From assembly GCF_004364245.1 (NCBI RefSeq), contig NZ_SOAV01000003.1:310001-374000 (forward strand): a stretch of 64,000 nt of DNA. The letters are read 5' to 3'. This DNA is from Streptomyces sp. BK208. Lineage in GTDB: Bacteria; Actinomycetota; Actinomycetes; Streptomycetales; Streptomycetaceae. The notes below the pieces were generated by a model. It searched no databases. It saw nothing but the letters and a program-made list of their open reading frames with translations, and was not told the DNA's origin. The position numbers and the translations under genes were made by a program. Shown here piece after piece: positions 2,229 to 46,021 of the stretch. Position 1 is the first letter of the stretch; every line of letters starts with the position of its first letter.

Positions 2229-3425
2229 TCAGGCGGGGGTCGCCTCGCCCTGCGTGACGGGGGCCGGGGCGGTCCAGCGGATGCGGGTGCTGCACAGTGC
2301 GACGGCCCCCGCCGAGGCGGCCACCGCTCCCATGCCCCACGCCAGGTCGCTCGCCCCGGCGATGAAGCCGATGAGCGGCGGCCCGGCCAGCAGCCCCGTG
2401 GTGCCCATGGCCGCGACCAACGTCAGCGCGTCCGAGCCCTGCCGGGCGGCGGCGGCGTAGACGCAGGGGGTCACGGCGGCGATGCCCAGGCCCATGCAGG
2501 CGAAGCCGGCCAGCGCCGGTGCGATGCCGCCGCTGACCAGGGCGACGGCGAGACCGGTACCGGCCACGGCACTGCCCAGCAGGACGACCCGCCCGTCGCC
2601 CCAGCGGCTGCGCCAGCCGTCGGCGAAGAGACGGGCGACGACCATCATCCCGGACACCACGGCGATGCCGAGCGGGGCGAGTTCGGCCGCCGCCTCGGCG
2701 ACGTCCTTCAGGTAGAGGGCGGACCAGTCGTTCATGGCACCCTCGGCGACCGTGCCGAACACCATGGCGCAGCACATCCACAGGGTCGGCCGGGCGGGGA
2801 CGGTCCAGCGGCGGCGGGCCGGCTTCGGGCCTGCGGGGGCGGGTGCGGCGGCCGGGGCGTCGTCGTCGAGCAGTCCGGTGCGGGCCGTCGCGCCGAGCGC
2901 GGCGAGCAGGACGACGGCGACGCCGAAGTGTGCCGCGACCGATCCGGTGGCGGCGGTCATGCCGGAGGCGAGCAGGGCCGCGAGCAGGGAGCCGGCGCTG
3001 AAGACGGCGTGCAGCCGCGCCATCGTGTTGCGCGCGTGCCGCGCCTCCAGCGCCGCGCCCTGCGCGTTCATCGCCACGTTCAGGCAGCCCACGAGGACAC
3101 CGTCGACGCACATCACCAGCAGGGCCACCGGGTAGTTCGGGGCCACCGCGAGGGCGAGCAGCAGCAGCGCCAGGCCCAGTTGGGACAGGAGTGCCAGCCG
3201 GCGCGAGCCCATCCGGCGCATCAGCCAGGCCACCGCCGGGAAGGACACCGCCGCGCCGACCCCCGCGGCCATCAGGAGCACCCCCACCTCGGCCGCGCTC
3301 AGGTCCAGGTCGGCCTTGACGGCCGGGATCCGCGCGGCCCAGGTGGCGTACTGGAAGCCGAGGGACAGGAACAGCGCGGCGATCGCCACCTGGCCGCGCA
3401 GGAAGGGGTCGTGGAGACGGGACAC
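2229..3425 (-). CDS. MFS transporter (YbjJ/fucose-permease-like), probable exporter
   Basis: A protein of about 398 residues with some 12 hydrophobic segments, typical of major facilitator transporters. The stretch ARHARNTMARLHAVFSAGSL and the loop after TM2 (MRRMGSRRLALL) resemble the YbjJ subgroup. It is the last gene of a five-gene operon, where a product exporter or precursor importer would be expected. The start is uncertain: a TTG at 3431 immediately follows the TGA of the upstream gene, and a GTG two codons later (3425) is the more usual choice. No strong ribosome binding site is visible, so translation probably depends on coupling to the acetyltransferase gene. Confidence 0.85.
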   Translation of the reverse strand: MSRLHDPFLRGQVAIAALFLSLGFQYATWAARIPAVKADLDLSAAEVGVLLMAAGVGAAVSFPAVAWLMRRMGSRRLALLSQLGLALLLLALAVAPNYPVALLVMCVDGVLVGCLNVAMNAQGAALEARHARNTMARLHAVFSAGSLLAALLASGMTAATGSVAAHFGVAVVLLAALGATARTGLLDDDAPAAAPAPAGPKPARRRWTVPARPTLWMCCAMVFGTVAEGAMNDWSALYLKDVAEAAAELAPLGIAVVSGMMVVARLFADGWRSRWGDGRVVLLGSAVAGTGLAVALVSGGIAPALAGFACMGLGIAAVTPCVYAAAARQGSDALTLVAAMGTTGLLAGPPLIGFIAGASDLAWGMGAVAASAGAVALCSTRIRWTAPAPVTQGEATPA

Positions 3426-3431
3426 GCGCAA

Positions 3432-4001
3432 TCAGCTCACTTCGCGCAGGGTGGGGGCGGACGGGGAGAGGACGGTGGGGGCGGGGGTCTGGCGGGCGGC
3501 GGGCACCGGCCCGGACATGTAGACGGCGCCGCCGCCGTACTCGCCGACCGGCACCACCCCCGGCTCGGCCACGAAGCCGCGGGCCGACCAGAACCGCTCG
3601 GTACCGCCCACGGCCACCAGGGAGATCCGCTCGTCGCCGCGGGCCCGGGCGGTGGCGGTGAGGTGGTGCAGGAGATGCCGGGCGAGCCCTCTGCGGCGCA
3701 GGCCCGGGGCGACGACGATGTCGTGGAGGTGGAGGTTGCCCGGCGGGTGCCCGGCCGTCGCCTCCTCCGTGCCCGCCAGGTCCGGGTAGCGGCGCGGCGG
3801 GTAGGGCAGCGCGAGGACGTACCCGGCGGTGCGCGCCCCGACGTCCACGACGAAGCAGGTGTCCGGCGACACCGCGGCCCTGGACTGCAGCGCGGCCCGG
3901 CCCTCCGACAGGCCGAGGCCGCCGTAGGCGTCCCGCTCCAGCTCCACGACCGCGTCCCAGTCCCCGTCGGCGAGGGGACGCACGCGTACGGCGTCAGTCA
4001 T
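3432..4001 (-). CDS. GNAT-family N-acetyltransferase
   Basis: A 189-residue single-domain acetyltransferase. The acetyl-CoA-binding motif A is VVAPGLRRRGLARHLL (around residues 94-109), followed by a typical motif-B strand-helix (GTERFWSARGFVAEP). It would transfer an acyl group from CoA to an amine. In this operon the obvious candidate is the amine made by the upstream PLP decarboxylase, which is an inference from context. The ATG at 4001 overlaps the end of the decarboxylase gene by 8 bases, so the two are translationally coupled. The Pro/Thr-rich C-terminal 25 residues are outside the fold. Confidence 0.85.
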   Translation of the reverse strand: MTDAVRVRPLADGDWDAVVELERDAYGGLGLSEGRAALQSRAAVSPDTCFVVDVGARTAGYVLALPYPPRRYPDLAGTEEATAGHPPGNLHLHDIVVAPGLRRRGLARHLLHHLTATARARGDERISLVAVGGTERFWSARGFVAEPGVVPVGEYGGGAVYMSGPVPAARQTPAPTVLSPSAPTLREVS

Positions 4002-5238
4002 CGGCGCCGGTCCCCTCGGGGCCGTGCGCCCAGGCGTACGGGAGCGGGGCGAAGCCGTTGAAGCCCAGGGTGGTGTAGCTGGTCGCGTAGGCGCCGCAGG
4101 ACAGCACCCAGACCGGGTCGCCCGAGGCCAGCGCCTCGGGCACCGGGACCAGACCCTCGTCGTGGGCGTAGGCGTCGTCGCTGTCGCAGGTGGGACCGGC
4201 GACGACGGCCGGGACGTACGGGCCGCCCGGGTGACCGGGGAAGACCAGCCGGTACTGAAGGGCGTCCATCTCGTACAGCCCGTTGAACTTGCCGCAGCTC
4301 AGGTACAGCCAGTGCCGCCGTTGGCCGTCGGCCGTCCGGCGTTCGGTGAGGCGGGTGACGTGGGCGCGGATCGCGCCGTGGTCGGCGACGAGGTACCGGC
4401 CCGGTTCGACGACGAACTCCAGGGGACCGCCGTGGATCAGGCGCAGTTCGTCCATGCCCTCCCGGATCACCGCGAAGATCTTGTCCAGCGGTGGGTCGAG
4501 GGGGTTGCCGCGCCGGTCGCGGTAGCCGAGCGCGGGCAGGCCGCCGCCGAGGTTGACGTGGTCGACGCGGATGCCGCGCCGGCCGAGGGCGCGCAGGACC
4601 TCGCCCAGGTCCTCGACGGCGGTGTGCCAGGCCTCGCCCGTCATCTGCTGGGAGCCGACGTGCACGGACAGGCCCGCAGGCACCAGTCCCGCCTCCCGGG
4701 CCGCCGCCAGCACCCGGACGGCGTCGCCGGGCGGGCAGCCGAACTTGTGGCTCAGGCCCCACACCGCCCCCGCCCCGCCCGTCGCCACCCGGCAGAACAC
4801 CCGGGCGCCGGGGGCGTGGACGGCGAGGGCGGCCACGTCCTGGACGCTGTCGGTGGCGAAGGTGCGGACGCCGAGCCGGTACGCCTCGGCGATGTCGCGG
4901 TCGGACTTGACGGTGTTGCCGTAGTGCACGCGTCCGGCCGGCACCCCGGCCCGCAGCGCCTGCTCGACCTCGCCGGGACTCGCCGCGTCGGCACCGGCGC
5001 CCCGGCGCGCCAGCGCGGCGAGGACCTCGTCGAGCGGACAGGCCTTCATCGCGAACCGCACCTGTACGCCGGGCAGTTCGCCGCGCAGCGTGTCGTGGCT
5101 CCGTTCGATGCCGGCCAGGTCGTACACCAGCCGGTCCTCGGTGGCGCCGGCGAGCGCGGCGGCCAGGGGCGCGCTGAGGCCCGCGCCCGTCGCCGTGTTC
5201 GCCGTGTTCGCCGTGTTCGCCGTGCCCACCGCGCTCAC
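3994..5238 (-). CDS. Fold-type III PLP-dependent decarboxylase, ornithine-decarboxylase-like
   Basis: A 414-residue alanine-racemase-fold enzyme. The Schiff-base lysine is K65 (RFAMKACP). Phosphate- and pyridine-binding segments are LSVHVGSQ, NLGGGLP and EPGRYLVAD. The C-terminal signature GPTCDSDD carries C351-D352, as in ornithine/lysine decarboxylases, whereas diaminopimelate decarboxylase has CES. The substrate is therefore likely a basic or neutral L-amino acid without a second alpha-amino-acid centre, giving an amine. The start is GTG 5238, overlapping the stop of the upstream gene as GTGA. The first 20 residues include (Ala-Asn-Thr)n encoded by a 9-bp tandem repeat, probably disordered. 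It is not next to other polyamine genes, so a specialised pathway role is likely. Confidence 0.85.
   Translation of the reverse strand: MSAVGTANTANTANTATGAGLSAPLAAALAGATEDRLVYDLAGIERSHDTLRGELPGVQVRFAMKACPLDEVLAALARRGAGADAASPGEVEQALRAGVPAGRVHYGNTVKSDRDIAEAYRLGVRTFATDSVQDVAALAVHAPGARVFCRVATGGAGAVWGLSHKFGCPPGDAVRVLAAAREAGLVPAGLSVHVGSQQMTGEAWHTAVEDLGEVLRALGRRGIRVDHVNLGGGLPALGYRDRRGNPLDPPLDKIFAVIREGMDELRLIHGGPLEFVVEPGRYLVADHGAIRAHVTRLTERRTADGQRRHWLYLSCGKFNGLYEMDALQYRLVFPGHPGGPYVPAVVAGPTCDSDDAYAHDEGLVPVPEALASGDPVWVLSCGAYATSYTTLGFNGFAPLPYAWAHGPEGTGADD
5196..5226. repeat. 9-bp microsatellite inside the decarboxylase gene
   Basis: CGTGTTCGC is repeated in tandem about three times, encoding Ala-Asn-Thr repeats in the non-conserved N-terminus of the PLP decarboxylase. 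Slippage here would change length by whole codons without shifting frame. Confidence 0.7.
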
Positions 5239-6560
5239 CGGGGCCGTCCCGCGGCCGGGGCGAGGGCGGTGGCCTTGGCCGCGGCGACCATCCCCTCCCA
5301 GGCCTCGGTGAGCAGCGCGAAGTCCGTCATGTCGCCGCGTGCCTCGTCGAGGAGGCGCTCGCGGCGGCCGGCCAGGTGGTCGGCGACGTCGGCGTACTCG
5401 CCGCCGAGCTGGCGGTAGGCGGCGTCGAGGGCGTCGAGCCGGCGGACGTTCTCCGCGGTGTCGAGACCGGTGCTCTCCCGGGCCAGGGCGGCGACGGCGG
5501 CGGGGCGGGCCCGGCCGTGCTCGTCCAGCAGGTCGTCGCCCGCCTCCGCCATGCGGTCGTAGACGTGGTGGAAGTAGAGCATCGAGAGCAGGAACTTGGC
5601 GAAGCGGGTCTGGTAGGCGAGGAAGCCGGGTCCCGTTCTGCGTTCGCCGGTGTAGTAGTTGACGATGTGCCGGTTGTGCAGCACACCCGGCAGCCGGGCG
5701 TCGTGCACGAGGTGGATGAGGAAGTAGTCGCTGCCGATGGTGTCCCGGGCGGGCGGCAGCGGGACGCGTTCGCTCACCGTGGCGCCGTGGAAGGCGATGT
5801 TGCACATGTCGACGCGCATCGGGTCGACCACCGTGAGCAGTGCGTGGTCCCGTGCGAAGGCGGTGGTGCCCGCACCCGTGAAGGACTCCTCGACCAGCTC
5901 CCGTTTCCGTTCGGCCGGCCAGTGCTCGGGCGCCCACAGGGAGACGACGTCCTGGTAGACACCGGGGTCGGCGTCCCGTATCCGGGCGATGTCCACGGAC
6001 AGTTCACCCACGAAGGAACCGCCCACCATGGCGACCCGCCGTGCGAGGAGCGGCTCGGGCAGGGCCGACTCGGTGACGTGGGGCACGGCGTCGGCGGCGG
6101 GCCGGCCGAGGGACAGCAGCTCGTGGTGGACGGGGAAGACCGTACGGCCGGCCACGCGCTGGTAGCGGCTGTCGGAGTCCCGACGGTGGACGGAGTCGCA
6201 GCCGAGCGCGGCCGCGATCAGGAAGGCGCGGTTGGTGCAGGCGCCGTAGGACAGTCCGTCGGGGAGCATGAGGTCGAGCAGCAGCTCGGGCTTGGCGCTG
6301 CCGGAGTTCTGCGCCACCCGGGTCAGGAAGGCGCGCTGGGCGGTCTCGTCGAGGTGGTGTGCCGTGATCCGGGGGTGGACCGGCAGGCGCCGCAGCGCGT
6401 CGGCGTGGGTGGCCCGGTCCTGGGGCGGGCAGGAGTCGAGGACCACGAGGTGGACATCGATGTCGAAGTGGTCGGCGGCGTAGGCGGCTTCCGCGCCGAG
6501 GGCCGTGACGGTGTCCGGGCAGGGCCGGTCGGTGGGAAGGGTCAGGCAGATGCTGCGCAT
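5235..6560 (-). CDS. Putative GT-A-fold glycosyltransferase-like protein of unknown function
   Basis: A 441-residue protein that I cannot assign to a characterised family. The N-terminal third resembles a nucleotide-sugar GT-A fold: an opening strand (MRSICLTLPT), then YGACTNRAFLIAAALGCD leading into RRDSDS, a DXD-like metal site at D128/D130. Glycosyltransferases place the donor-binding DXD after just such an N-x-A...G-x-D helix. The C-terminal half is helical (FAKFLLSMLYFHHVYDRM). There is no signal peptide or membrane segment. It overlaps the dioxygenase gene by 19 bases and the decarboxylase by 4, so it is made with them. The sugar donor, the acceptor and even transferase activity are inference. 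Confidence 0.6.
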   Translation of the reverse strand: MRSICLTLPTDRPCPDTVTALGAEAAYAADHFDIDVHLVVLDSCPPQDRATHADALRRLPVHPRITAHHLDETAQRAFLTRVAQNSGSAKPELLLDLMLPDGLSYGACTNRAFLIAAALGCDSVHRRDSDSRYQRVAGRTVFPVHHELLSLGRPAADAVPHVTESALPEPLLARRVAMVGGSFVGELSVDIARIRDADPGVYQDVVSLWAPEHWPAERKRELVEESFTGAGTTAFARDHALLTVVDPMRVDMCNIAFHGATVSERVPLPPARDTIGSDYFLIHLVHDARLPGVLHNRHIVNYYTGERRTGPGFLAYQTRFAKFLLSMLYFHHVYDRMAEAGDDLLDEHGRARPAAVAALARESTGLDTAENVRRLDALDAAYRQLGGEYADVADHLAGRRERLLDEARGDMTDFALLTEAWEGMVAAAKATALAPAAGRPR

Positions 6561-7624
6561 GCGGCGTCCCCGGTGGCCTCGTCGGCGTCGCCGCCGTCGG
6601 TGTCGGTGTCGGCGTGCCAGGACCGCAGGCCCAGCAGCCTGGCGCCCAGGTCGGTCAGTTCGGCGGGTCCGTAGCGCTCGGACTCGTGCCGGTGGGCGTC
6701 GCCGAGCAGGGTGGCGTTCCAGTCGGGGGTGGCGAGGGTGCGCCAGGAGTCGACGCGGGAGTCGCGCAGGGCGCGGTGGGTCTCCAGCGCGGGCATCATC
6801 GACAGGTACTGGACCGCGCGCACGCCCTCGCCGGAGACGTTGGGCGCGACGCCGTGGGCCAGCAGCCCGTTCCAGATGAGCAGGTCACCGGCCTCAAGGT
6901 CGGGCCGTACGACGGGCATGTCCGCGCGGTCGATCGCGGGCCGGATCGGGTCGCGGTCGTCTGGCTGGAGGGCCTTCCAGCGGTCGAAGCGGCGGAACAG
7001 CTCGGGACAGCACTGGAAGCCGCCGTGGTCGGGCTTGGTGTCGTTGAGGGCGATGATGCCCTGCACACGCTGCGGCAGGACGCCCTGGGAGGTGTCGACG
7101 TCCCAGTGCAGCTCGATGTCGAAGCCGCGGTCGGGCTTGTCGATCAGGGCGCGGTCGCGATTGCCCACGTTGGGCGGGTTGAGGTTGAGCCGGTCCAGGG
7201 TGACCCACAGCTCCTCGCAGTCCCAGACGTCGACGAAGGCGTCGTACACGCGCTGCGTCTGGCGGCTGTCCCAGATGAGCTGGTGGTGGTACGCCTCGAC
7301 GAAGCCGTAGATGTGCAGCTCGCGGTCGAGATCGGAGCGGTACTCGCGCTCCTGGTACCAGGTGTCGGGGCGTTCGGGGTCGAGTCCCTGGAACTCCCAG
7401 GCGAAGTCCAGCAGTCGGCGTGCGGAGTCGGCGGGTATCGCCTCCTTCACGACGACGTAGCCGTACGTCTGCCAGTGGGCGAAGTCCTCCTCGGACAGCA
7501 CCCGCAGCGGACGTGTCTTGTGGAGGTCGCGCAGCTGGGTGCGGGCCAGGTAGGTGTCGGCGTCCGCGCTGAAGTAGGGCAGGTCCGACGGGGCTCGGTG
7601 GAGGTGGGAATCGGGCGTCGCCAT
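6542..7624 (-). CDS. Phytanoyl-CoA dioxygenase (PhyH)-family Fe(II)/2-oxoglutarate oxygenase
   Basis: A 360-residue non-haem iron oxygenase and the first gene of the five-gene operon. The facial triad is visible: H173-x-D175 (ELHWDVD) and distal H257 (LLAHGVAPN), with R269 placed to bind the 2-oxoglutarate carboxylate. PhyH-family members hydroxylate or otherwise oxidise small molecules such as ectoine or free amino acids. Here the substrate could be the amino acid or amine handled by the downstream decarboxylase (inferred). The ATG at 7624 has GGAG six bases upstream; a longer in-frame extension is not conserved-looking. It is soluble and probably cytosolic. Confidence 0.85.
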   Translation of the reverse strand: MATPDSHLHRAPSDLPYFSADADTYLARTQLRDLHKTRPLRVLSEEDFAHWQTYGYVVVKEAIPADSARRLLDFAWEFQGLDPERPDTWYQEREYRSDLDRELHIYGFVEAYHHQLIWDSRQTQRVYDAFVDVWDCEELWVTLDRLNLNPPNVGNRDRALIDKPDRGFDIELHWDVDTSQGVLPQRVQGIIALNDTKPDHGGFQCCPELFRRFDRWKALQPDDRDPIRPAIDRADMPVVRPDLEAGDLLIWNGLLAHGVAPNVSGEGVRAVQYLSMMPALETHRALRDSRVDSWRTLATPDWNATLLGDAHRHESERYGPAELTDLGARLLGLRSWHADTDTDGGDADEATGDAACAASA

Positions 7625-8130
7625 GTGGTGCTCCAGATCCTCGCCGTCGCCCCGTGCGGGCAACGGCGGTGTGCGCGACGGTGGTCGGCCGTCGCACATG
7701 AGGTCGGTGGTGGCAGCGGGCCCGCCCGCCGGCACGGGGCGGAAGCGGGCGACGGGGGCGGCTCGGACGGACGGGGTGGTCCCGCTCGGGGAGGGCCCCG
7801 CTCAGGGGTCGCCCCGGTCCGCGCCCCCGTCCGGAGTGGTCGTCTCGTCCGGGGTGGTCGTCACGGAAGTCGTCGTACGGAAGTCGTCGCCGCGACGGCG
7901 GTCTGCGCAGTCCGGCCGCGGCTGGTGCCCGGCGCGGAAACTGGAGTCACAGGGGCCCCTCGCCGAACATGCGCCTCACAATGGACTAGACCAGGGGAGG
8001 GTGTCAACACCCCTCCCGACGAGGTGAGTTGTTACTTCCGAGTTAGGCGACAGGCACCCTTGACACGTCTGGTTAACCTGAACGCGCCCTCCTTGGTCCG
8101 TACCAAGAAACGACCCGAAAGGCGCTGCCG
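7625..8130. promoter_or_regulatory. Divergent control region with two DasR-like (dre) sites
   Basis: 506 bases separate the dioxygenase operon from the GH3 gene. TGGACTAGACCA (7982-7993) matches the DasR core TGGTCTAGACCA at 11 of 12 positions. CTTGGTCCGTACCAAG (8092-8107) is a 6-4-6 inverted repeat that is more weakly dre-like and lies just before the GH3 start. GGGTGT-CA-ACACCC (7999-8012) is a further inverted repeat, and TTGACA is at 8060-8065. Around 7829-7887 are short direct repeats (GTCCGGRGTGGTCGTC twice, ACGGAAGTCGTCG twice). No gene was seen. Confidence 0.5.
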
Positions 8131-9660
8131 ATGCCCTCCAACATGCCCGGCGGCGAGTTGCGCCGGCTCGCGCTCTCCGTCCTGCAGCCGGGTTTCGTGG
8201 GCACCGAGGCTCCCGACTGGATCCTGCGCGACATCGGCGACGGACTGGCCTCCGTCGTGCTCTTCTCCCGCAACATCGTCTCCCCCGAGCAGGTCGCCCG
8301 CCTGACCGCCAGGCTCCGCGCCGAGAATCCCGACCTGATCGTCGCGATCGACGAGGAGGCGGGCGACGTCACCCGCATCGAGTCCGCGACCGGCTCCTCC
8401 CGGCCGGGCAACTTCGCGCTCGGCACCGTCGACGACACGGAGCTGACCGAGGCCGTCGCCGCCGACCTGGGCCGGCAGCTGCGCGCCGCCGGGGTCAGCC
8501 TCGACTACGCCCCGAGCGCGGACGTCAACTCCAACCCGGACAACCCGATCATCGGCGTGCGTTCCTTCGGCTCGGACCCCGACGTGGTCTCCCGGCACAC
8601 CGCCGCCTGGATCCGCGGCCTCCAGTCGTCCGGCGTCGCCGCCTGCGCCAAGCACTTCCCCGGCCACGGGGACGTCGCCGTCGACTCCCACCACGACCTG
8701 CCGGCGTACCCGGCCGGGCGGGACGAGATCGCCGCCCAGGCGCTGCCCCCGTTCCGGGCCGCCGTCGCGGCCGGCGTGCGCGCGGTCATGAGCGGTCACC
8801 TGCTGGTGCCCGCCTACGACCCCGACCTGCCGGCCACACTGAGCCGGCCCGTCCTCCAGGGCCTGCTCCGCGAGGAGTTGGGCTTCGACGGCCTCGTCGT
8901 CAGCGACGCCATCGAGATGGGCGCCGTCACCCGCCGGTACGGCATCGACGGCGCCACGGTGAAGGCCGTCGCCGCCGGCGTGGACGCCGTCTGCGTGGGC
9001 GGCGAGAGCGCCGACGAGGCCACCGTCGCGCGGCTGGCCGAGGCGCTGGTCGCCGCGGTGAGGGGCGGGCGGTTGCCGCCGGAGCGACTGGCCGGGGCGG
9101 CGGACCGGGTACGGGAGTTCGCCCGCTGGTCGGCCGGGCTGCGGGCGGCGGGGGCCGCCGGGGAGGCGGCCGGGGACGGCATCGGGCACGTCGCCGCGCG
9201 CCGGGCCGTGCGGCTCACCGGCGCCGCGCGGGCCGCCCTGCCGCTGACCGCCGCGCCGCACGTGGTGGAGCTGGTCCCGGTGACCAACATGGCCGTCGGC
9301 AGTCAGACGCCCTGGGGCGTGGCCGGTCCGCTGCGCGAGCGCCTGCCGGGCACGACCTCCGTACGGGTGCGCGGGCAGGAGCTGGAGGACGGGGCGGTGG
9401 CGCTGGACCGCTGCGCCCTGGAACCGGCGGCGGGACGCCCGCTGGTGATCGTCGCCCGCGACGCGGCCCGGCACGCGTGGATGAGCCGCGCCGTGACCGG
9501 TCTGACCGCCGCCCGCCCGGACGCGATCGTCGTGGAGATGGGCCTGCCGGGCACCGTCACCGCGGCGGCCGCGCAGATCTTCACCCACGGCGCGAGCGCG
9601 GCCTCGGGGGTGGCCGCGGCGGAGGTCCTCACGGACGCGTCGGCAGGCCGGGCCGGGTGA
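8131..9660 (+). CDS. Glycoside hydrolase family 3, NagZ-like beta-N-acetylhexosaminidase
   Basis: A 509-residue GH3 enzyme with the NagZ signature: K174-H-F-P-G-H-G-D leading to D185-S-H187, whose His/Asp dyad is the general acid unique to NagZ-type enzymes. The nucleophile is D259 in VVSDAIEMGA. No signal peptide is present, so it should act in the cytoplasm on GlcNAc-containing fragments from chitin or muropeptide recycling. It is longer than NagZ of proteobacteria (about 340) because of a C-terminal alpha/beta domain, as in Gram-positive NagZ relatives. The ATG at 8131 lies 10 bases after GAAAGG. A DasR-like inverted repeat (8092-8107) suggests GlcNAc-responsive control. Confidence 0.85.
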   Translation: MPSNMPGGELRRLALSVLQPGFVGTEAPDWILRDIGDGLASVVLFSRNIVSPEQVARLTARLRAENPDLIVAIDEEAGDVTRIESATGSSRPGNFALGTVDDTELTEAVAADLGRQLRAAGVSLDYAPSADVNSNPDNPIIGVRSFGSDPDVVSRHTAAWIRGLQSSGVAACAKHFPGHGDVAVDSHHDLPAYPAGRDEIAAQALPPFRAAVAAGVRAVMSGHLLVPAYDPDLPATLSRPVLQGLLREELGFDGLVVSDAIEMGAVTRRYGIDGATVKAVAAGVDAVCVGGESADEATVARLAEALVAAVRGGRLPPERLAGAADRVREFARWSAGLRAAGAAGEAAGDGIGHVAARRAVRLTGAARAALPLTAAPHVVELVPVTNMAVGSQTPWGVAGPLRERLPGTTSVRVRGQELEDGAVALDRCALEPAAGRPLVIVARDAARHAWMSRAVTGLTAARPDAIVVEMGLPGTVTAAAAQIFTHGASAASGVAAAEVLTDASAGRAG

Positions 9661-9666
9661 GCCGAG

Positions 9667-9702
9667 CGGCCCACCGGGGTGGGCCGCGGCCTCGCGCGAG
9701 GC
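9667..9702. terminator. Tandem hairpins between convergent GH3 gene and hemE
   Basis: CGGCCCAC/GTGGGCCG (9667-9674 with 9679-9686) is followed by GCCTCG/CGAGGC (9689-9702). The pair lies in a 49-base convergent gap and can terminate both genes. Confidence 0.7.
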
Positions 9703-9709
9703 GCCCGGG

Positions 9710-10777
9710 TCAGCGCTCGGTCTGCGTGTGGACGTACTCCACGAGGCGGGTCAGGGCGTCGGGGTCGGTGGTCGGCAGGACGCCGTGACCGAGGTTGAAG
9801 ACGTGGCCCTCCAGGCCGGCCGCCGCGTCCAGGACCTCGCGGGTCTTGGCCTCGACCGCTTCCCGGCCGGCGAAGAGGACGGCCGGGTCCAGGTTGCCCT
9901 GGAGCGCCTTGCCGGGGCCGACGCGACGGGCCGCCTCGTCCAGCGGGACGCGCCAGTCGACGCCGACGACGTCCGCGCCGGCCTCGCCGAGGAGGCCGAG
10001 CAGCTCGCCGGTGCCGACGCCGAAGTGGACGCGCGGCACGCCGTACCCGGCGACGGCCTCGAAGACCTTGCGGGAGGCGGGCAGCACCGAGCGGCGGTAG
10101 TCGGCCGGGGACAGCGCGCCGACCCAGGAGTCGAAGAGCTGGACGGCGCTCGCGCCCGCCTCGATCTGCACCTCGAGGAAGGCCGCCGTGATGTCCGCGA
10201 GCCGGTCCAGGAGGTCGGCCCACAGCTGCGGGTCGCCGTACATGAGGGCCTTGGTGTGCTCGTGGTTGCGGGACGGGCCGCCCTCCACGAGGTAGCTCGC
10301 GAGGGTGAACGGCGCCCCCGCGAAACCGATCAGCGGGGTGGCGCCGAGTTCGCGGGTGAGCAGGCCGAAGGCCTCGGTGACGTAGGTGACGTCCTCGGGG
10401 GTGAGGTCCCGCAGCTGCGCCAGGTCCGCGCGGGTGCGGATCGGGTTCGCGACGACCGGGCCGACGCCGGGCTTGATGTCGAGGTCGATGCCGATGGCCT
10501 TGAGGGGGACCACGATGTCGCTGAAGTAGATCGCCGCGTCCACGCCGTGCCGGCGCACCGGCTGGAGGGTGATCTCGGCGACCAGTTCCGGCCGCGTGCA
10601 GGACTCGAGCATCGGAATGCCCTCGCGCGCCTTCAGGTACTCCGGCAGTGAGCGCCCGGCCTGCCGCATGAACCACACGGGGGTGTGCGGCACCGGCTCA
10701 CGCCTGCACGCCTTGAGGAACGCGGAGTCGTACGTGGCGGTCGGCTGCTGGCCCGCGGGGCTCTGGTTGGCACTCAC
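9710..10777 (-). CDS. hemE: Uroporphyrinogen decarboxylase
   Basis: A 355-residue enzyme that removes four acetate carboxyls from uroporphyrinogen III to give coproporphyrinogen III in haem synthesis. Diagnostic motifs are [15 protein letters not shown] near the N-terminus, [12 protein letters not shown] (catalytic Asp) and [13 protein letters not shown]. The length is normal. The GTG at 10777 is chosen because the family N-terminus begins a few residues before [10 protein letters not shown]. No clear ribosome binding site is seen, and GAGACT lies seven bases upstream on the minus strand, so the mRNA may be leaderless. The divergent DUF3000 gene is its usual actinobacterial neighbour. Confidence 0.97.
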
Positions 10778-10972
10778 ACCGGCAAGTCTCGCATGCCCCC
10801 CGGAGGGCGCCGGACCACGGGTGGGCGGCCCGCGAACGCGGCCCGGTCGGTTCGCGGAGCACGGGCGGGGCGGCTCCCGCGCGCCCCCACGAGGCCGTGT
10901 GATCCGGACATCGCGCCCGCACGCGGGTGTCCCTCCCTGCGCCGGGCCGCCGTTCCGCTTAATGTTCCCCGC

Positions 10973-11659
10973 ATGGCTGCGGCTCAGGGACGACTGTCGG
11001 ACGGCGCTGGCGGAATGGACGACGCGAAGGGGACCGAGGAAGAGGCCCGGCACAAGGGGGGCGACGGGAGCACGGCTCCACCCGCCTTCACGGCCGCCGT
11101 GGAGGCGCTGCGCGTCGCGCGGCTGCGGCCGCAGATCGAGGTGGAGGCGACCCGCGCACCGCAGCGGCTCGCCCCGCACGCGTACGCGCTGGAGGCCGCG
11201 GTCGTCGACGGCGACGAGGACCTGGCGGACGGTCGGCTGGTGCTGCTGCACGACCCGGCCGGGCACGACGCCTGGCACGGCACCTTCCGCCTGGTGACGC
11301 TGGTACGGGCCGAACTGGAACCGGAGATGGCGGCGGACCCGCTGCTGCCCGACGTGTGCTGGTCCTGGCTGACCGGGGCGCTCCAGGCGCGCGGGCTGTC
11401 GTACGGCGAGCCCAGCGGCACGGTCACGCGTGCGAGTTCCCACTACTTCGGGGGGCTCTCGGCGCGTCCGGCCGCCTCGCAGATCGAGATCCGGGCGTCC
11501 TGGACGCCGCGCGAGGGCCTGGGCGGCGTCCCGGACACCGCGGCGCACCTGTCCTCGTGGTGCGATCTGCTGGCCCAGGTCGCGGGCCTGCCGCCGGCGG
11601 CGCCGGGCGACGCGTCCATCGTGACGCTGCCGCAGCGGCGCGGTCCGCAGTCGCGCTGA
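10973..11659 (+). CDS. DUF3000-family protein
   Basis: A 228-residue protein of a family confined to actinobacteria, typically found between hemE and a ribonuclease D gene, as here. The conserved part starts at [20 protein letters not shown] and runs through [26 protein letters not shown] to [15 protein letters not shown]. The first 35 residues are variable. Function is unknown; there is no signal peptide or membrane segment. The ATG at 10973 has no Shine-Dalgarno sequence, but TAATGT (10960-10965 region) sits where a -10 box would make a leaderless transcript. A second ATG is at 11015. Confidence 0.85.
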
Positions 11660-11677
11660 CGCCCCAGGCGTCGTTCA

Positions 11678-11712
11678 CCGTTCCGGACAGCGGGTCCGCA
11701 CGCCCGGAACGG
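11678..11712. terminator. Hairpin after the DUF3000 gene
   Basis: CCGTTCCGG (11678-11686) pairs with CCGGAACGG (11704-11712) across a 17-base loop, just after the DUF3000 stop. Confidence 0.5.
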
Positions 11713-11719
11713 GTTCCGT

Positions 11720-11763
11720 CACTTTGTCGACACGGCCACTTTCGGGCTCGTATCGACAAAGTG
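11720..11763. promoter_or_regulatory. 11-bp inverted repeat upstream of whiI
   Basis: CACTTTGTCGA (11720-11730) and TCGACAAAGTG (11753-11763) are perfect inverted copies separated by 22 bases. The spacing of two helical turns suits cooperative binding of a dimeric regulator, but the pair could also form an RNA hairpin. It lies about 80 bases upstream of the WhiG-type promoter. Confidence 0.4.
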
Positions 11764-11842
11764 TGAAACCGTTCGATCTTCGAATGATCGACAGCGTGTC
11801 CGAATTGCTCGGATTGTTACTCACCAGATCGTGATCATTCTC

Positions 11843-11870
11843 TAAAGGCGGACGCGTTCGGTGCCGAAGA
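11843..11870 (+). promoter_or_regulatory. Sigma-WhiG promoter of whiI
   Basis: TAAA (11843-11846) and GCCGAAGA (11863-11870) are separated by 16 bases. This matches the flagellar-type sigma-WhiG consensus TAAA-N15/16-GCCGATAA with one mismatch in the -10. whiI is an established direct WhiG target in Streptomyces. Transcription would start near 11877, leaving a leader of about 70 bases. Confidence 0.8.
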
Positions 11871-11949
11871 CGACTGTGACCTTGAAAGCACGGTTCGTCC
11901 CGGCTTCACCCCCATGAGCCGGCTCCGTCCCCGCACCCCAGGAGGCCTG

Positions 11950-12612
11950 GTGTCCGTTCTCCTCGAGCAGCCTGCAAGCCTGGTCGCCTACCGCCCGAAC
12001 AAGCCGACCGCCATGGTGGTCGTGGCCGACCCGCGCGTCCGTTCCACCGTCACCCGCCACCTGTGGGCGCTCGGTGTGCGCGACGTCATCGAGGCCTCGT
12101 CCGTCGCGGAGGCTCGTCCCCGCATCGGCAACCCCCGCGACATCTGCGTCGCCGACGTCCACCTCCCCGACGGCTCGGGCCTGACCCTGCTGTCGGAGAC
12201 CCGCGCCGCGGGGTGGCCCAACGGGCTCGCCCTGTCCGCGGCCGACGACATCGGCGCCGTGCGCAACGCCCTCGCCGGCGGCGTGAAGGGCTACGTCGTC
12301 ACCGGTACCCGCACCAACGTCGGGCTCCCCACCCGGCCGGGTGCCGCTCCCATCGGCGCCGCCGCCGCCCGCCTGCACCGCCGCCCCCCGGGTGCCCCGA
12401 GCCACCCGGGCGGCTACCGCGAGCTCTCCGGCCGCGAGGTGGAGGTGCTGCGACTGGTCGCGGAGGGCCAGTCGAACAAGGCGATCGGCGTCTCGATGGG
12501 CCTGTCCGCCCTGACCGTCAAGAGCCACCTGGCCCGCATCGCGCGCAAGCTCGGCACGGGCGACCGCGCCGGGATGGTCGCGGTGGCCCTGCGCACGGGC
12601 ATCATCCACTGA
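11950..12612 (+). CDS. whiI: Atypical response regulator WhiI, sporulation regulator
   Basis: A 220-residue receiver plus LuxR-type helix-turn-helix protein needed for sporulation septation; WhiI is known to act as a heterodimer with BldM. In the receiver the usual paired acidic residues are reduced to A26-D27. The acceptor-position D69 (VADVHLPDG) and K113 (GGVKGYV) remain, fitting an atypical receiver that does not rely on normal phosphorylation. The DNA-binding domain starts at YRELSGREVEVLRLVAEGQ and contains TVKSHLARIARKLG. GTG 11950 follows AGGAGG (11940-11945); an in-frame ATG at 11914 is less well placed. No partner kinase gene is nearby. Confidence 0.93.
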   Translation: MSVLLEQPASLVAYRPNKPTAMVVVADPRVRSTVTRHLWALGVRDVIEASSVAEARPRIGNPRDICVADVHLPDGSGLTLLSETRAAGWPNGLALSAADDIGAVRNALAGGVKGYVVTGTRTNVGLPTRPGAAPIGAAAARLHRRPPGAPSHPGGYRELSGREVEVLRLVAEGQSNKAIGVSMGLSALTVKSHLARIARKLGTGDRAGMVAVALRTGIIH

Positions 12613-12788
12613 CCGCCCCGACCCGCCCGCCAGCCCCGGTCCTCTCCGCGCCGCACCGGCCTTCCCCTCCCCCGGCCAGCCCCTTCCGCTCCTTCACCTC
12701 TTCCCCCCTCTCCTGCTCCTCAAGGCCGTGCCGCGTCGCCGCTCATGACGACGAGGTTTCACCGACCTGACTGGTTTACGACCCCCCG

Positions 12789-12822
12789 GCGCCCGCCGAC
12801 GGAACGTTCCGTCGGCGGGCGC
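12789..12822. terminator. 34-bp perfect palindrome between whiI and the RNase D gene
   Basis: Two 17-base arms (12789-12805 and 12806-12822) are exactly complementary with no spacer and are centred on AACGTT. It would form a very strong hairpin after whiI. It also ends only 14 bases before the -10-like TACCCT (12837-12842) of the RNase D gene, so it may double as an operator. Confidence 0.6.
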
Positions 12823-12848
12823 GGTCGATCCACCGATACCCTTGACAG

Positions 12849-14135
12849 GTGACCGACGCCCACGAAACCGCAGCAGACCGTTCACTGCGAACCACCGGAG
12901 GCGCCCCTCCGGACGACGCCGGATCTTCTGCGAGTCAGGCGCCGATCCCCTTGCTCGAACCTCGGGAGGGCATTCCGCCGGTGATCGCCGACGCGGACGC
13001 CCTCGCCGAGGTGATCGCCGCCTTCGCAGCCGGCAGCGGCCCCGTCGCCGTCGACGCCGAGCGCGCCTCGGGGTACCGCTACGGCCAGCGCGCCTACTTG
13101 GTGCAGCTGCGACGCCACGGTGCGGGGACGGCCCTCATCGACCCGGTGGGCTGCCCCGACCTCTCCGCCCTCGGCGCGGCGATCGCCGACGCGGAGTGGG
13201 TGCTGCACGCGGCCACCCAGGACCTGCCGTGCCTGCGGGAAATAGGGATGGTGCCCACCCGCATCTTCGACACCGAGCTGGCCGGGCGGCTCGCCGGGTT
13301 CCCGCGCGTCGGTCTCGGCGCGATGGTGGAGAACGTCCTGGGCTTCGTCCTGGAGAAGGGCCACTCGGCCGTCGACTGGTCCACCCGCCCGCTGCCCGAG
13401 CCCTGGCTGCGCTACGCCGCGCTCGACGTCGAGCTGCTGGTCGACCTGCGGGACGCCCTGGAGAAGGAGCTGGACCGGCAGGGCAAGCTGGAGTGGGCCC
13501 GGCAGGAGTTCGACGCGATCGCCTCGGCCCCGCCGCCCGAGCCGCGCAAGGACCCCTGGCGCCGTACCTCCGGCATGCACAAGGTGCGCCGGCGCCGCCA
13601 GCTCGCGGTGGTGCGCGAGCTGTGGCAGACCCGGGACCGCATCGCGCAGCGCCGGGACGTCTCCCCCGGCAAGGTGCTCGGGGACGCGGCCATCGTCGAG
13701 GCGGCGCTCGCCCTGCCGGCCAACGCGCACGCGCTGGCCGCGCTGCACGGGTTCGGGCGGGTGAACCGCCGGCAGCTCGAGCAGTGGCAGGTGTCGGTGG
13801 ACCGGGCCAAGGCGCTGTCCGAGTCGCAGCTGCCGCAGCCCGGCCAGCCGGTGACCGGCCCTCCGCCGCCGCGGGCCTGGGCCGACAAGGACCCGGCCGC
13901 CGCGGCCCGGCTGGCCGCGGCACGCGCGGCGGTGACGGCGCTGGCCGAGCAGCTGAACATGCCCCAGGAGAATCTGATCACCCCGGACACGGTGCGCCGG
14001 GTCTGCTGGGAGCCGCCGGCGACGCTCGACACCGAGTCCGTGAGCGCGGCCCTCGCCGGGCACGGTGCCCGGCCCTGGCAGGTGGAGCAGGTGGCACCGG
14101 TCCTGGTGACGGCGCTGGGCGAGACGGCGCCGTAG
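12849..14135 (+). CDS. Ribonuclease D-like 3'-5' exonuclease with HRDC domain
   Basis: A 428-residue DEDD-family exoribonuclease. ExoI is VDAERASGY (D and E metal ligands), ExoII is the HAATQDLPCL region, and ExoIII is RYAALDVELL (YxxxD). The HRDC domain follows (VVRELWQTRDRIAQRRDVSPGKVL). The C-terminal 120 residues are Pro/Ala-rich and then a second helical domain, usual for actinobacterial members. The role is 3' processing of structured RNAs such as tRNA precursors. The GTG at 12849 lies six bases after TACCCT with no ribosome binding site, indicating a leaderless mRNA. Confidence 0.9.
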   Translation: MTDAHETAADRSLRTTGGAPPDDAGSSASQAPIPLLEPREGIPPVIADADALAEVIAAFAAGSGPVAVDAERASGYRYGQRAYLVQLRRHGAGTALIDPVGCPDLSALGAAIADAEWVLHAATQDLPCLREIGMVPTRIFDTELAGRLAGFPRVGLGAMVENVLGFVLEKGHSAVDWSTRPLPEPWLRYAALDVELLVDLRDALEKELDRQGKLEWARQEFDAIASAPPPEPRKDPWRRTSGMHKVRRRRQLAVVRELWQTRDRIAQRRDVSPGKVLGDAAIVEAALALPANAHALAALHGFGRVNRRQLEQWQVSVDRAKALSESQLPQPGQPVTGPPPPRAWADKDPAAAARLAAARAAVTALAEQLNMPQENLITPDTVRRVCWEPPATLDTESVSAALAGHGARPWQVEQVAPVLVTALGETAP

Positions 14136-14640
14136 CACGGGAACGGCGGGTTCCGGCCAGATCACGGAGGTGGGCGGCGCGGTCGGGCGGACGACCGGGG
14201 GCGAGCCGTCGGCCGGCCCGGTGGCGGACGCGCGGGTCGACTCGACGACGCCCGACTCGTCGACTCGGCGGCGTGTGAGCGGCCGGCCGGGGTGTTGGAC
14301 GAACAGCCGGGTGGCATGGCGGGCGAGCGGCCGGGCGGAACGGCCGACGAACAGCCGGGCGTCATGGCGGACGACCGGCCGGACGGAACGTCGGACGACC
14401 GGTCGACCCGCGCGACGGAGGACCCTCAGGCCCGCTCGACGGCGGCCGGTCGGGCGGGGCGACGGCGGCCGGTCGGGCGGGGTGAGCGGTGCTCCAGCGG
14501 TGTGACGGGCGGTGTGACCTTCGCCGCTCCGGCCGGGGGGACTGGGCAGCTACGTTACTCATAAGTAGCATGGGACTGAGCGCGCGCTCAGTGCATGCGT
14601 GCCGCAGCAGTGCCATCCCGCACCCTGGAGGAGAGCCATC
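14136..14640. other. 505-bp gap with degenerate repeats before fadA
   Basis: No credible gene was found. 14298-14345 and 14346-14393 are imperfect 48-bp tandem repeats beginning GACGAACAGCCGGG. GACGGCGGCCGGTCGGGCGG is repeated at 14438 and 14461 with a 23-bp period. Short frames crossing these repeats encode low-complexity peptides and look spurious. The last 80 bases are AT-richer and hold the fadA control region. Confidence 0.6.
14575..14592. promoter_or_regulatory. 18-bp palindromic operator upstream of fadAB
   Basis: ACTGAGCGCGCGCTCAGT is a perfect palindrome, 48 bases before the fadA start. TGAGCGC/GCGCTCA half-sites are typical of TetR-family fatty-acid regulators, so an acyl-CoA-responsive repressor is plausible (inferred). 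Just upstream, GCTAC and GTAGC flank an AT-rich stretch (TTACTCATAA) that may contain the promoter. Confidence 0.55.
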
Positions 14641-15858
14641 GTGCCTCGTACCGTCAGGGACGTCGTCTTCGTCGACGGCGTCCGCACCCCGTTCGGCAAG
14701 GCGGGCCCGAAGGGCATCTACCACGAGACCCGCGCCGACGACCTGGTCGTGAAGGCGATCCGGGAGCTGCTGCGCCGCAACCCCGGTCTCGACCCGAAGA
14801 AGATCGACGAGGTCGCCGTCGCCGCGACCACGCAGATCGGTGACCAGGGCCTGACCATCGGCCGCACCGCCGGCATCCTGGCGGGCCTGCCGACCTCGGT
14901 CCCCGGTTACTCCATCGACCGCATGTGCGCGGGCGCCCTGACCGCCGTCACCTCGGTGGCCGGCTCGGTCGCCTTCGGCGCCTACGACGTCGCCATCGCC
15001 GGCGGCGTCGAGCACATGGGCCGCCACCCGATGGGCGAGGGCGTGGACCCGAACCCGCGGTTCGTGAGCGAGAAGCTGGTCGACGAGTCCGCCCTGTTCA
15101 TGGGCATGACCGCGGAGAACCTGCACGACCGCTACCCGAGCATCACCAAGCAGCGCGCCGACGAGTACGCGGTGCGCTCGCAGGAGAAGGCCGCGAAGGC
15201 GTACGCCAACGGCCAGATCCAGGCCGACCTGGTGCCGGTCTCGGTGCGTCGCACCAACGAGGAGGCGGGCGAGACCGGCTGGGGCCTGGTCACCGCCGAC
15301 GAGCCGATGCGCCCGGGCACCACGCTGGAGAACCTGGCGGGCCTCAAGACGCCGTTCCGCGTGCACGGCCGGGTCACCGCGGGCAACGCGGCCGGTCTGA
15401 ACGACGGCGCGACGGCGTCGCTGATCGCGAGCGAGGACTTCGCCCGCGAGAACGGCCTCCCGGTCAAGATGCGCCTGGTCTCCTACTCCTTCGCGGGTGT
15501 CGAGCCCGAGGTCATGGGCTACGGCCCGATCCCGGCCACCGAGAAGGCCCTGGCCCAGGCCGGGCTGTCGATCTCCGACATCGGCCTGTTCGAGATCAAC
15601 GAGGCCTTCGCCGTCCAGGTCCTCGCGTTCCTGGAGCACTACGGCATCGCCGACGACGACGCCCGCGTCAACCAGTACGGCGGCGCCATCGCCTTCGGCC
15701 ACCCGCTGGCCTCCTCCGGCGTCCGTCTGATGACGCAGCTGGCCCGCCAGTTCGAGGAGCAGCCGCACGTCCGCTACGGCCTGACCACCATGTGCGTCGG
15801 CTTCGGCATGGGCGCGACGGTCATCTGGGAGAACCCGCACTTCGAGGGGGACAAGTGA
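14641..15858 (+). CDS. fadA: Acetyl-CoA acyltransferase (3-ketoacyl-CoA thiolase)
   Basis: A 405-residue thiolase catalysing the last step of beta-oxidation. Catalytic residues are C96 (DRMCAGAL) for acyl transfer, H354 (FGHPLASSG) and C385 (TMCVGFGMG). The GTG at 14641 is five bases after GGAGGAGAG. Its TGA overlaps the GTG of fadB (GTGA), so the two subunits of a soluble fatty-acid oxidation complex are co-translated. A palindromic operator lies upstream. Confidence 0.95.
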   Translation: MPRTVRDVVFVDGVRTPFGKAGPKGIYHETRADDLVVKAIRELLRRNPGLDPKKIDEVAVAATTQIGDQGLTIGRTAGILAGLPTSVPGYSIDRMCAGALTAVTSVAGSVAFGAYDVAIAGGVEHMGRHPMGEGVDPNPRFVSEKLVDESALFMGMTAENLHDRYPSITKQRADEYAVRSQEKAAKAYANGQIQADLVPVSVRRTNEEAGETGWGLVTADEPMRPGTTLENLAGLKTPFRVHGRVTAGNAAGLNDGATASLIASEDFARENGLPVKMRLVSYSFAGVEPEVMGYGPIPATEKALAQAGLSISDIGLFEINEAFAVQVLAFLEHYGIADDDARVNQYGGAIAFGHPLASSGVRLMTQLARQFEEQPHVRYGLTTMCVGFGMGATVIWENPHFEGDK

Positions 15859-17984: not shown

Positions 17985-18001
17985 CTCCTCCCGCGGTTCT
18001 G

Positions 18002-18030
18002 AAGGGCCCCCGCCCGAGGCGGGGGCCCTT
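18002..18030. terminator. Intrinsic terminator between fadB and the glycosyltransferase cluster
   Basis: A perfect 13-bp stem (18002-18014 with 18018-18030) with a CGA loop is flanked by A and T residues on both sides. It can serve both convergent transcripts. Confidence 0.85.
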
Positions 18031-18050
18031 TCGCGTGCCGTGGACCGGTG

Positions 18051-35109: not shown

Positions 35110-35489
35110 CCGTGCCTCCTTGCAGTAGAGCTGTTGCCGGGCTCGTCGAGTCTAATGTTCCGCTCCGGCGGAACGTGTCCGGGCGGTGCGTCGTACGTCA
35201 CGCGTTCGGCCTTACCCAGCGGCGGGCCCTTCTACGTCTCTGCGGTGGTGTCTTCCCCGTCCGTGGCGTCCGGCACGTCGCCGTCCGGCTTGGGGACACC
35301 TTTACCCGGGTGGTCCAGTGCCCCGGGCGCACGGTGTCCAGGCCGGGCGGGGTCCGGCTCGGCCAATTGGTCTAGTCCCATTTTGGTCCAGACCATTGCG
35401 TCCCCCGATGCTCCGGCGATATCCCCGTACCCGGCAACACCGCAGCGCAGCACGGGATTCGACGTCCACCCACACACACCGGGACTGAC
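35110..35489. other. 380-bp divergent region between dxs and the chitinase gene
   Basis: Contains the dxs promoter (minus-strand TAGACT at 35149-35154 and GTTCCGC-TCCG-GCGGAAC at 35157-35174), then 190 bases without visible signals, then the chitinase promoter with its DasR-like repeats (35367-35396). No gene seen. Confidence 0.6.
35367..35396 (+). promoter_or_regulatory. Chitinase promoter overlapped by two DasR-like repeats
   Basis: TTGGTCTAGTCCC (35367-35379) and TTGGTCCAGACCA (35383-35395) are direct repeats 16 bases apart. The second matches the dre core TGGTCTAGACCA at 11 of 12. A -35 TTGGTC (35367) and a -10 GACCAT (35391) with an 18-base spacer fit inside them, the arrangement known for Streptomyces chitinase promoters. 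DasR (GlcNAc-sensing) is the expected regulator. Confidence 0.7.
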
Positions 35490-44011: not shown

Positions 44012-44018
44012 CGCGGTG

Positions 44019-45428: not shown

Positions 45429-46021
45429 CTTTGCATCCTCACTGATCGATTGGTTCTGTCCGGGTGTGCTGCATGTGCGGCCGCCGTGACCGGACCGGTC
45501 CTGCGCCGGCCACACGTGAGGCGTTGTCGCCGTCGTCTCGGAGCCGCGGTGCGGCGCCGATGATCAGCTGAGCGATGCCGGCACAACAGTCGCCGGGGCC
45601 GGAGCGACGGTCGCGCTCCGCCTGATCAGATCGTGATAACCCACGCCGGTGGTGGATCCCATGCTCAAGTCCTCGCCTTCTCCAGGACTCAGGCGGTGAA
45701 CCGGATCCTCGCCGGCACCGCGATCGGGTCACGCTGGGTCGTGCTGGGTCGTGCTGGGCCTTGCAGGAAAAGCGGGTACCGCCTGTGCAGTCACGATGGT
45801 GTCACTGCTGTTCGGGCGCGTGGGCGGTTCCTCGTCGCGGTTCCCCCCGTATCCCCCGGTGGCCGACAGGTATAGTCCACTTTCCGTCGGCGGAGCAAGA
45901 TCGAATGCAAGGTTCCCGGTACGTCTTTTCCGAGTTGAGACCTCCCGGAAATATGAGTGGCCTGTGTATCGCATGCCGTAAGAATCCCTGGCATAACCCC
46001 CGAACGCCACATCCAACACCC
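45429..46021. other. About 590-bp gap upstream of ngcE and the GH92 gene
   Basis: No convincing gene was found on either strand; short frames here have poor codon bias. GGGTCRYGCT is repeated three times in tandem (45726-45755). GGACCGGTCC near 45492 is a palindrome in the ngcE leader. From about 45900 the sequence is AT-richer and leads into the GH92 promoter. Confidence 0.55.

Follow-up and report, generated by a model that had tools for sequence, protein, structure and literature searches.

What might a compact run of five genes in Streptomyces sp. BK208 make, and what would switch it on? The run occupies positions 2229–7624 of a 64,000-nucleotide stretch (contig NZ_SOAV01000003.1, positions 310,001–374,000), referred to below as the window, and encodes an oxygenase of the PhyH family, a protein of the DUF6271 family, a pyridoxal-phosphate (PLP) decarboxylase, a GNAT acetyltransferase and a major facilitator superfamily (MFS) transporter. 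The operon is real, conserved and undescribed in the literature searched, its inducer is predicted, and the new part is its control. As far as can be told from the genes alone, the five probably form an operon for a small exported metabolite, which would be repressed by DasR and released by N-acetylglucosamine (GlcNAc). An earlier note on this DNA had proposed a small-molecule pathway; probable DasR/GlcNAc regulation through a site at 7980–7995 and a sister cluster with carrier-protein chemistry, both absent from that note, are the main news here.

The operon and its boundaries

The locus contains the following features.

6542–7624, minus strand: PhyH-family Fe(II)/2-oxoglutarate oxygenase, operon gene 1 (PF05721, 43.1 bits, cut-off 22)
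5235–6560, minus strand: DUF6271 protein of 441 residues with a predicted GT75-like GT-A fold and the motif D128-S129-D130 (PF19787, 744.9 bits, cut-off 25)
3994–5238, minus strand: fold-III PLP decarboxylase of the ornithine/lysine/diaminopimelate decarboxylase type, GTG start (PF02784 Orn_Arg_deC_N, 147.4 bits, cut-off 23.4)
3432–4001, minus strand: GNAT N-acetyltransferase (PF00583 Acetyltransf_1, 48.5 bits, cut-off 20.7)
2229–3431, minus strand: MFS transporter, last operon gene, TTG start (PF07690 MFS_1, 81.3 bits, cut-off 33.4)
7980–7995, no strand assigned: DasR-responsive element (dre), between PhyH and the divergent NagZ-type gene
8131–9660, plus strand: divergent GH3 beta-N-acetylhexosaminidase of the NagZ/DasD type (PF00933, 238 bits)

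Each of the first three operon genes runs into the next, by 19, 4 and 8 bases, and the GNAT and MFS genes abut if the TTG start of the latter is used; an alternative MFS start is the GTG at 3425. The positions, overlaps and, with the TTG start, the abutting last gene given in the earlier note are confirmed, and its ornithine-decarboxylase-type PLP enzyme, GNAT and MFS proteins all score above the Pfam cut-offs (the decarboxylase with its N-terminal domain). Over the five genes the ratio of nonsynonymous to synonymous substitution (dN/dS) between the window and three relatives (L063, L076 and L087) is 0.11–0.48. Chance open reading frames (ORFs) or a spurious operon are ruled out by synteny, dN/dS and the conservation of motifs. 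A scan for sigma-70 promoters and terminators gave none (0.1 and 0.8 expected), and the ends of the operon therefore rest on comparison.

The NagZ-type gene and PhyH have a common intergenic region, and NagZ is linked to the five-gene run while lying outside it. Its divergent orientation rules it out as a sixth operon gene in the window; in 24 of 109 loci with the gene order of the window (type A, see below) it runs in the same direction as the operon.

After the operon and outside the five-gene unit, there is a small minus-strand ORF (1685–2029, 104–114 residues by the start chosen), which belongs to a cluster of 11 among near relatives.

Conservation of the five genes as a unit

Loci were taken from three sources: 150 relatives, 31 of which have DUF6271; named genomes, where the best 80 of 312 matches, those nearest to the window, were kept (L063–L142); and 392 genomes of the genus, selected in part because of low scores and long open frames. 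The named loci closest to the window are from Streptomyces. The named set leans to type A because only the best 80 of 312 matches are in it. Some strains occur both under G handles and under names (for example L032/L087, L138/L186 and L141/L187, and by neighbourhood L139/L182). Loci with a short flank or no DUF6271 match were set aside for the synteny count (2, 6 and 5 in the three sets, 13 in total). The in-house gene caller overlooked some GNAT genes, and gene order was recounted with tblastn; families of upstream and downstream genes are in-house blastp clusters.

Among loci with enough flank, the order PhyH–DUF6271–decarboxylase–GNAT–MFS on one strand, which defines type A, is present in 19 of 28 from the relatives, 73 of 74 from the named genomes and 12 of 35 from the further genomes of the genus. 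In the sister arrangement, type B, the genes after PhyH and DUF6271 encode a condensation-domain protein and another MFS transporter (9 of 28 relative and 21 of 35 further genus loci). Loci of neither type are L122, with an inverted MFS gene, L162, with no decarboxylase match, and the hybrid L175. The gene downstream of MFS falls into 50 families over 75 loci, while the gene upstream of PhyH is NagZ in 55 of 73 loci, and 81 of 109 type A loci have a NagZ-type gene no more than 12 kb away. The five genes are a conserved unit with a sharp downstream boundary; the earlier note had made its pathway depend beforehand on their joint conservation in other genomes, and on this point it stands.

DUF6271 is found in 123 of 392 genus genomes, three of which have only remote or weak matches (G037, G816 and G788). 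A phylum-wide draw gave 5 of 396 genomes, all from the same genus, and the genome of the window has one match. At 80% identity the proteins fall into 69 groups (53 type A, 13 type B), so the family is more than a few near-copies. Among 100 relatives PhyH has 23 matches. The 21 strong matches (E < 1e-190) are confined to genomes with DUF6271 and account for 21 of the 22 such genomes, the remaining one being G037 with its remote DUF6271.

Predicted control by DasR and N-acetylglucosamine

The dre at 7980–7995 is one of 2 matches in the window with at most 3 mismatches (0.18 expected). It scores 19.3 bits with a matrix built from 34 published elements, from which the Streptomyces coelicolor SCO6032–SCO6033 element was excluded, and it differs from that element by 1 base. 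Across the loci, sites of at least 14 bits were counted from −500 to +60 of the called PhyH start, with the upstream regions of other genes in the same loci as the control. Of the 98 type A loci (in this count, all that are not type B by called genes), 74 have a DasR-type site before PhyH, as do 9 of 9 type B loci, compared with 14 of 815 controls. The further loci, a few strains of which overlap the named set, gave 9 of 12 for type A, 22 of 22 for type B and 1 of 2 for others, compared with 6 of 282 controls. L086 and L123 are left out of the first count and L186 out of the second (less than 400 bases upstream), as are L169–L171, which have no PhyH.

A site kept only for NagZ is ruled out by its presence in all 9 type B loci of the first count and in 15 of the 24 type A loci whose fetched stretch has no called NagZ, some of these stretches being cut by contig ends. 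In none of 31 type B loci was NagZ found nearby, and the type A and type B elements are different sequences. Since type B has the element without NagZ and in a differing sequence, the element seems to be kept for the core itself.

Elsewhere in the genome of the window, a GntR regulator 74% identical to DasR adjoins dasABC-like genes and a NagZ-type gene, and in other genomes some of the operons sit directly behind dasABC and a NagZ/DasD-type gene. The operon thus shares the operator type and the NagZ/DasD-type or dasABC neighbourhood with the DasR regulon and the dasABCD chitobiose operon, whereas its enzymes differ from those of chitin catabolism.

PMC4398421 reports in vivo binding of DasR at SCO6032–SCO6033 in S. 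coelicolor in 4 of 10 chromatin immunoprecipitation (ChIP) columns, including those for 24 h and 54 h. In R5 medium, DasR is listed there at T0, is gone at T1–T2 after addition of GlcNAc and is back at T3 (Table 1 of that paper), and GlcNAc relieves DasR repression according to PMC12370203. For this peak the accessible text of PMC4398421 names SCO6032 only, a hexosaminidase gene. The identical S. coelicolor element lies 279–280 bases before PhyH in L066 and L068 and 278 bases before it in L177 and L181, the dre of the window being at 371; 278 is one of two distances published for the SCO6032–SCO6033 element (PMC4398421). Another element in the window, at 45866–45881, has the same sequence as the SCO6004–SCO6005 element published for S. 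coelicolor. Identical elements at a matching distance, together with the SCO6004–SCO6005 element in the window, indicate that SCO6033 is most likely this PhyH.

The element at 45866–45881 is near a run of sugar ABC transporter genes (42045–45362, by inspection). A DasR-type pair at 35366–35397 precedes a gene at 35499–37013, named by inspection as that of a secreted chitinase-like protein.

The sister cluster, fusions and a hybrid locus

Type B loci additionally have a divergent gene for an aminoacyl-carrier-protein ligase and a gene for an acyl carrier protein (ACP), and most have a phosphopantetheinyl transferase (PPTase). The condensation domain (59.1 bits, cut-off 30.6) and PPTase (30.9, cut-off 25) exceed their Pfam thresholds, while the ligase (25.8, cut-off 29.3) and ACP (17.1, cut-off 32) are under theirs. 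The ligase resembles the amino acid:[carrier protein] ligase Bll0957 (5.5e-20) and reaches 103.7 bits with NCBIfam NF005479, below the cut-off of 357; such a ligase is present in the sister clade and in the hybrid L175 and absent from the window. The HxxxD motif of the condensation domain and the D-S motif of ACP are each kept in 31 of 31, and the transporter is MFS_3/EntS-like.

In a DUF6271 tree of 91 rows (every third named locus, long rows only), built by a quick method with no bootstrap, the 59 rows of type A and the 31 of type B separate cleanly at one branch (98*, 99*); L052, L053 and L058 have long branches. The decarboxylase and GNAT are fused in L129, L134, L138, L141, L186 and L187, the last two being copies of L138 and L141, and by gene call also in L052; the fused ORFs of the first four are about 565 residues long. 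DUF6271 is fused to the condensation domain in seven type B loci (L044, L149, L150, L151, L152, L154 and L167). These fusions suggest that the parts act together, the decarboxylase with GNAT and DUF6271 with the condensation domain.

The hybrid L175 (G983, 7488–20000) combines PhyH, DUF6271 and the decarboxylase with two ABC transporters, an AurF-type N-oxygenase, an aminoacyl-carrier ligase, a nitronate monooxygenase-like gene, an O-methyltransferase and an ACP-like protein, and the contig ends soon after. It is placed at the base of B on the tree, and no DasR-type site was found upstream of its PhyH.

The oxygenase and the decarboxylase

All 146 rows of PhyH keep H173-W-D175, H257 and R269, in agreement with the intact His/Asp/His site described earlier. 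Some strains are present twice among the rows of the motif counts, and rows taken from loci into alignments A3–A5 mostly end one residue short by in-house arithmetic. Searches of solved structures with PhyH returned no match, and its predicted model (pLDDT 49.3) was discarded.

The decarboxylase carries the PLP lysine and GPTCD, as well as HVGSQ and EPGR, which all 111 rows of sufficient length contain. The same elements occur in the fold-III lysine/ornithine decarboxylases 2plj, its best PDB match, and 5gjm; unlike these, it has a motif of its own, NGLYEMD, in a region which we take to be the specificity loop. Its C-terminal Pfam model is slightly below cut-off (22.9 compared with 23), and no cut-off among the NCBIfam equivalogs was reached.

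DUF6271 and the GT75 fold

The predicted model of DUF6271 has a pLDDT of 93.1. Its best fold match is the GT75 enzyme MtdL (Z 25.1, root-mean-square deviation 3.4, 315 aligned, model residues 1–429), followed by rice UAM2, also of GT75 (Z 22.1, deviation 3.7, 306 aligned). The next group, mannosyl-3-phosphoglycerate synthases and others, has Z of at most 16.6 among the 50 matches listed. Both the GT75 core and the C-terminal helices of the GT-A fold are present in the model.

MtdL binds Mn and the nucleoside diphosphate (NDP)-sugar via its DXD motif, His287 and Arg289, with Arg159 as the proposed nucleophile, and the two characterised bacterial members of GT75, MtdL of A201A and Hyg20 of hygromycin, serve antibiotic pathways (PMC9937993). 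The D-S-D of DUF6271 is kept in 150 of 150 rows and is in register with the GT75 DDD in profile alignments. H-x-R, likewise in 150 of 150 rows, was placed on H287-x-R289 of MtdL by eye only, against L145, whose residue numbers coincide with those of MtdL. By eye against L145 and L148, PT-x-R, SFVGELSVD and CNIAF also correspond to VVPTIR, the GLWLGDPDVD stretch and MCGMNLAF.

DUF6271 is thus alike in near full-length fold and DXD motif to the GT75 NDP-pyranose mutases (MtdL, Hyg20 and plant UAM/RGP), while it is 65 residues longer than MtdL, has Ser in place of Asp195 (by eye) and belongs to its own Pfam family. Pfam gave PF19787 only and no PF03214 (GT75), and sequence searches of solved structures returned nothing or only TRAF6 matches (E 0.3–1.5). 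DUF6271 probably acts on an NDP-sugar in the manner of a GT75-fold enzyme. The GT-A-like assignment of the earlier note is strengthened by the confident model, while the glycosylation it proposed may be ring mutation or transfer, because the nearest fold is that of the GT75 mutase/Arg-glycosyltransferase family.

The pairing of an Fe/2-oxoglutarate oxygenase with a GT-A enzyme also occurs in lysyl hydroxylase LH3, which performs hydroxylation and then glycosylation and is a weaker fold match of DUF6271. LH3 serves as an analogy only: the operon proteins are separate, no sequence kinship was shown and a small-molecule acceptor is assumed.

Proposed pathway and its alternatives

In the best reading, the product is an exported, acylated, sugar-linked hydroxy-amine. 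DasR would repress the operon and release it once GlcNAc, from chitin or the cell wall, accumulates. PhyH would then hydroxylate a small acceptor, probably an amino acid, and the metal-dependent DUF6271 would use an NDP-sugar on this product, with UDP-GlcNAc (UDP, uridine diphosphate) as the favoured guess. The PLP decarboxylase would take off the carboxyl group, GNAT would acetylate the resulting amine and the MFS protein would export the product. In type B, a carrier-loaded amino acid would instead be joined by the condensation domain to the product of PhyH and DUF6271, with another transporter. We infer the substrates, donor sugar, step order, product, direction of transport and actual repression, the order being the simplest that fits the fusions. 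Of the small-molecule pathway proposed earlier, the unit now has its conservation and a small molecule for export is the most likely result, while the product chemistry is still inferred only.

Several observations weigh against this reading. In 24 of 98 type A loci no site was found at up to 500 bases from the PhyH start as called. Eight of these have a site (at least 13 bits) before an upstream co-directional dasA-type run into the operon, and in 13 a site lies ahead of NagZ or of another upstream gene, or somewhat farther away; L120 has a far-away site only, and L072 and L138 have none in the fetched stretch, which for L138 begins about 400 bases before PhyH. In the minimal-medium induction series of PMC4398421, no DasR binding is recorded at SCO6032–SCO6033 from T0 to T3, and the core targets of DasR are described there as mostly uptake and catabolism. 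The identity of SCO6033 comes from synteny, not a look-up. A diverged PhyH relative in G060 (321 bits) belongs to a genome without DUF6271, as does the weak match in G057 (22 bits). UDP-GlcNAc as the donor is a guess drawn only from regulation and neighbourhood. The sequence kinship of DUF6271 and GT75 is nonsignificant (hhalign E 0.99, 0.76 and 0.11, with thin alignments), and counterparts of the catalytic Arg159, Arg257 and Asp260 of MtdL could not be traced in DUF6271 by eye; DUF6271 is kept out of GT75 because of the nonsignificant profile comparison and the missing Arg159 counterpart.

The product could also be reached by a different use of DUF6271, if it were a true GT75-type mutase supplying an NDP-furanose to a glycosyltransferase encoded elsewhere, so that the product would be furanosylated. 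MtdL and UAM2 are by far the best fold matches, which favours this variant, but neither operon contains another glycosyltransferase (the flanking genes being partly annotated), the nucleophilic Arg159 could not be traced, and the fusion to the condensation domain in seven type B loci fits better with an enzyme whose target is the product itself; we regard the variant as unlikely. A larger departure would be a catabolic or salvage operon, in which the MFS protein imports a chitin-released amino-sugar or amino-acid conjugate for breakdown. The preference of DasR for uptake and catabolism among its core targets (PMC4398421, as above) and the several operons directly behind dasABC and a NagZ/DasD-type gene are in line with it, and MFS transport could run in either direction. 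It is weakened by type B, where the ligase-like protein, ACP, PPTase and condensation domain are building enzymes and the transporter is EntS-like, which leaves catabolism a rather improbable purpose.

It is very unlikely that the operon modifies a GlcNAc polymer of the cell envelope, with DUF6271 acting on a wall glycan and type B adding an amino acid in a D-alanylation-like manner. Such a role would suit the NDP-sugar-type fold, the GlcNAc control, the NagZ neighbour and the carrier-protein set of type B, but neither operon has a polymerase, flippase or membrane acyltransferase, and the sole membrane protein is the MFS transporter. To our knowledge, PhyH and soluble decarboxylases have no part in wall decoration.

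The small exported metabolite may have a wider setting. It is quite possible, if still somewhat doubtful, that DUF6271 marks a family of chitin/GlcNAc-responsive specialised-metabolite pathways present in about 3 in 10 genomes of the genus, with a PhyH and DUF6271 core and two interchangeable finishing modules. DUF6271 would then be a new class of small-molecule NDP-sugar enzyme and the product a signal or weapon on meeting chitin; such pathways would have been overlooked because type A is without classic core enzymes.

Novelty and significance

A literature search that left out most subscription papers and bioRxiv preprints found no mention of DUF6271. Within the same scope SCO6032 is mentioned in one paper, while SCO6033–SCO6037 are not, nor is DasR together with phytanoyl-CoA dioxygenase. 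A broader search of titles and the beginnings of abstracts found no description of the operon, and the words "dioxygenase" and "decarboxylase" occur in neither PMC12370203 nor PMC12161575, as far as their main texts were available.

In the laboratory many Streptomyces pathways stay silent, and what triggers them is unknown. For this operon the trigger, GlcNAc acting via DasR, is predicted from the operator ahead of the product, so that a plain experiment can reveal the product. If the proposal is true, the DUF6271 family gains a function and the GT75 fold is extended beyond ring mutation or self-glycosylation, while the published DasR ChIP peak, tied in the text to a hexosaminidase gene, gains a second, biosynthetic target.

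Remote relatives of DUF6271 and PhyH

Remote DUF6271 proteins are encoded without PhyH in L060 (8933–10297, 28% identical to that of the window) and in L169 (92% identical to L060), where by inspection the neighbours are an ABC transporter set resembling glycine betaine uptake. Around the weak second DUF6271 match of G818 (85 bits; L170, 7708–8505), itself unresolved by the gene caller, there are a family 2 glycosyltransferase gene and a gene for a histidine phosphatase with a kinase-like N-terminus. A diverged PhyH relative in L143 (8826–9716) belongs to another cluster, which by inspection encodes a radical SAM-like protein, two carbamoyltransferase-like proteins and an MFS transporter.

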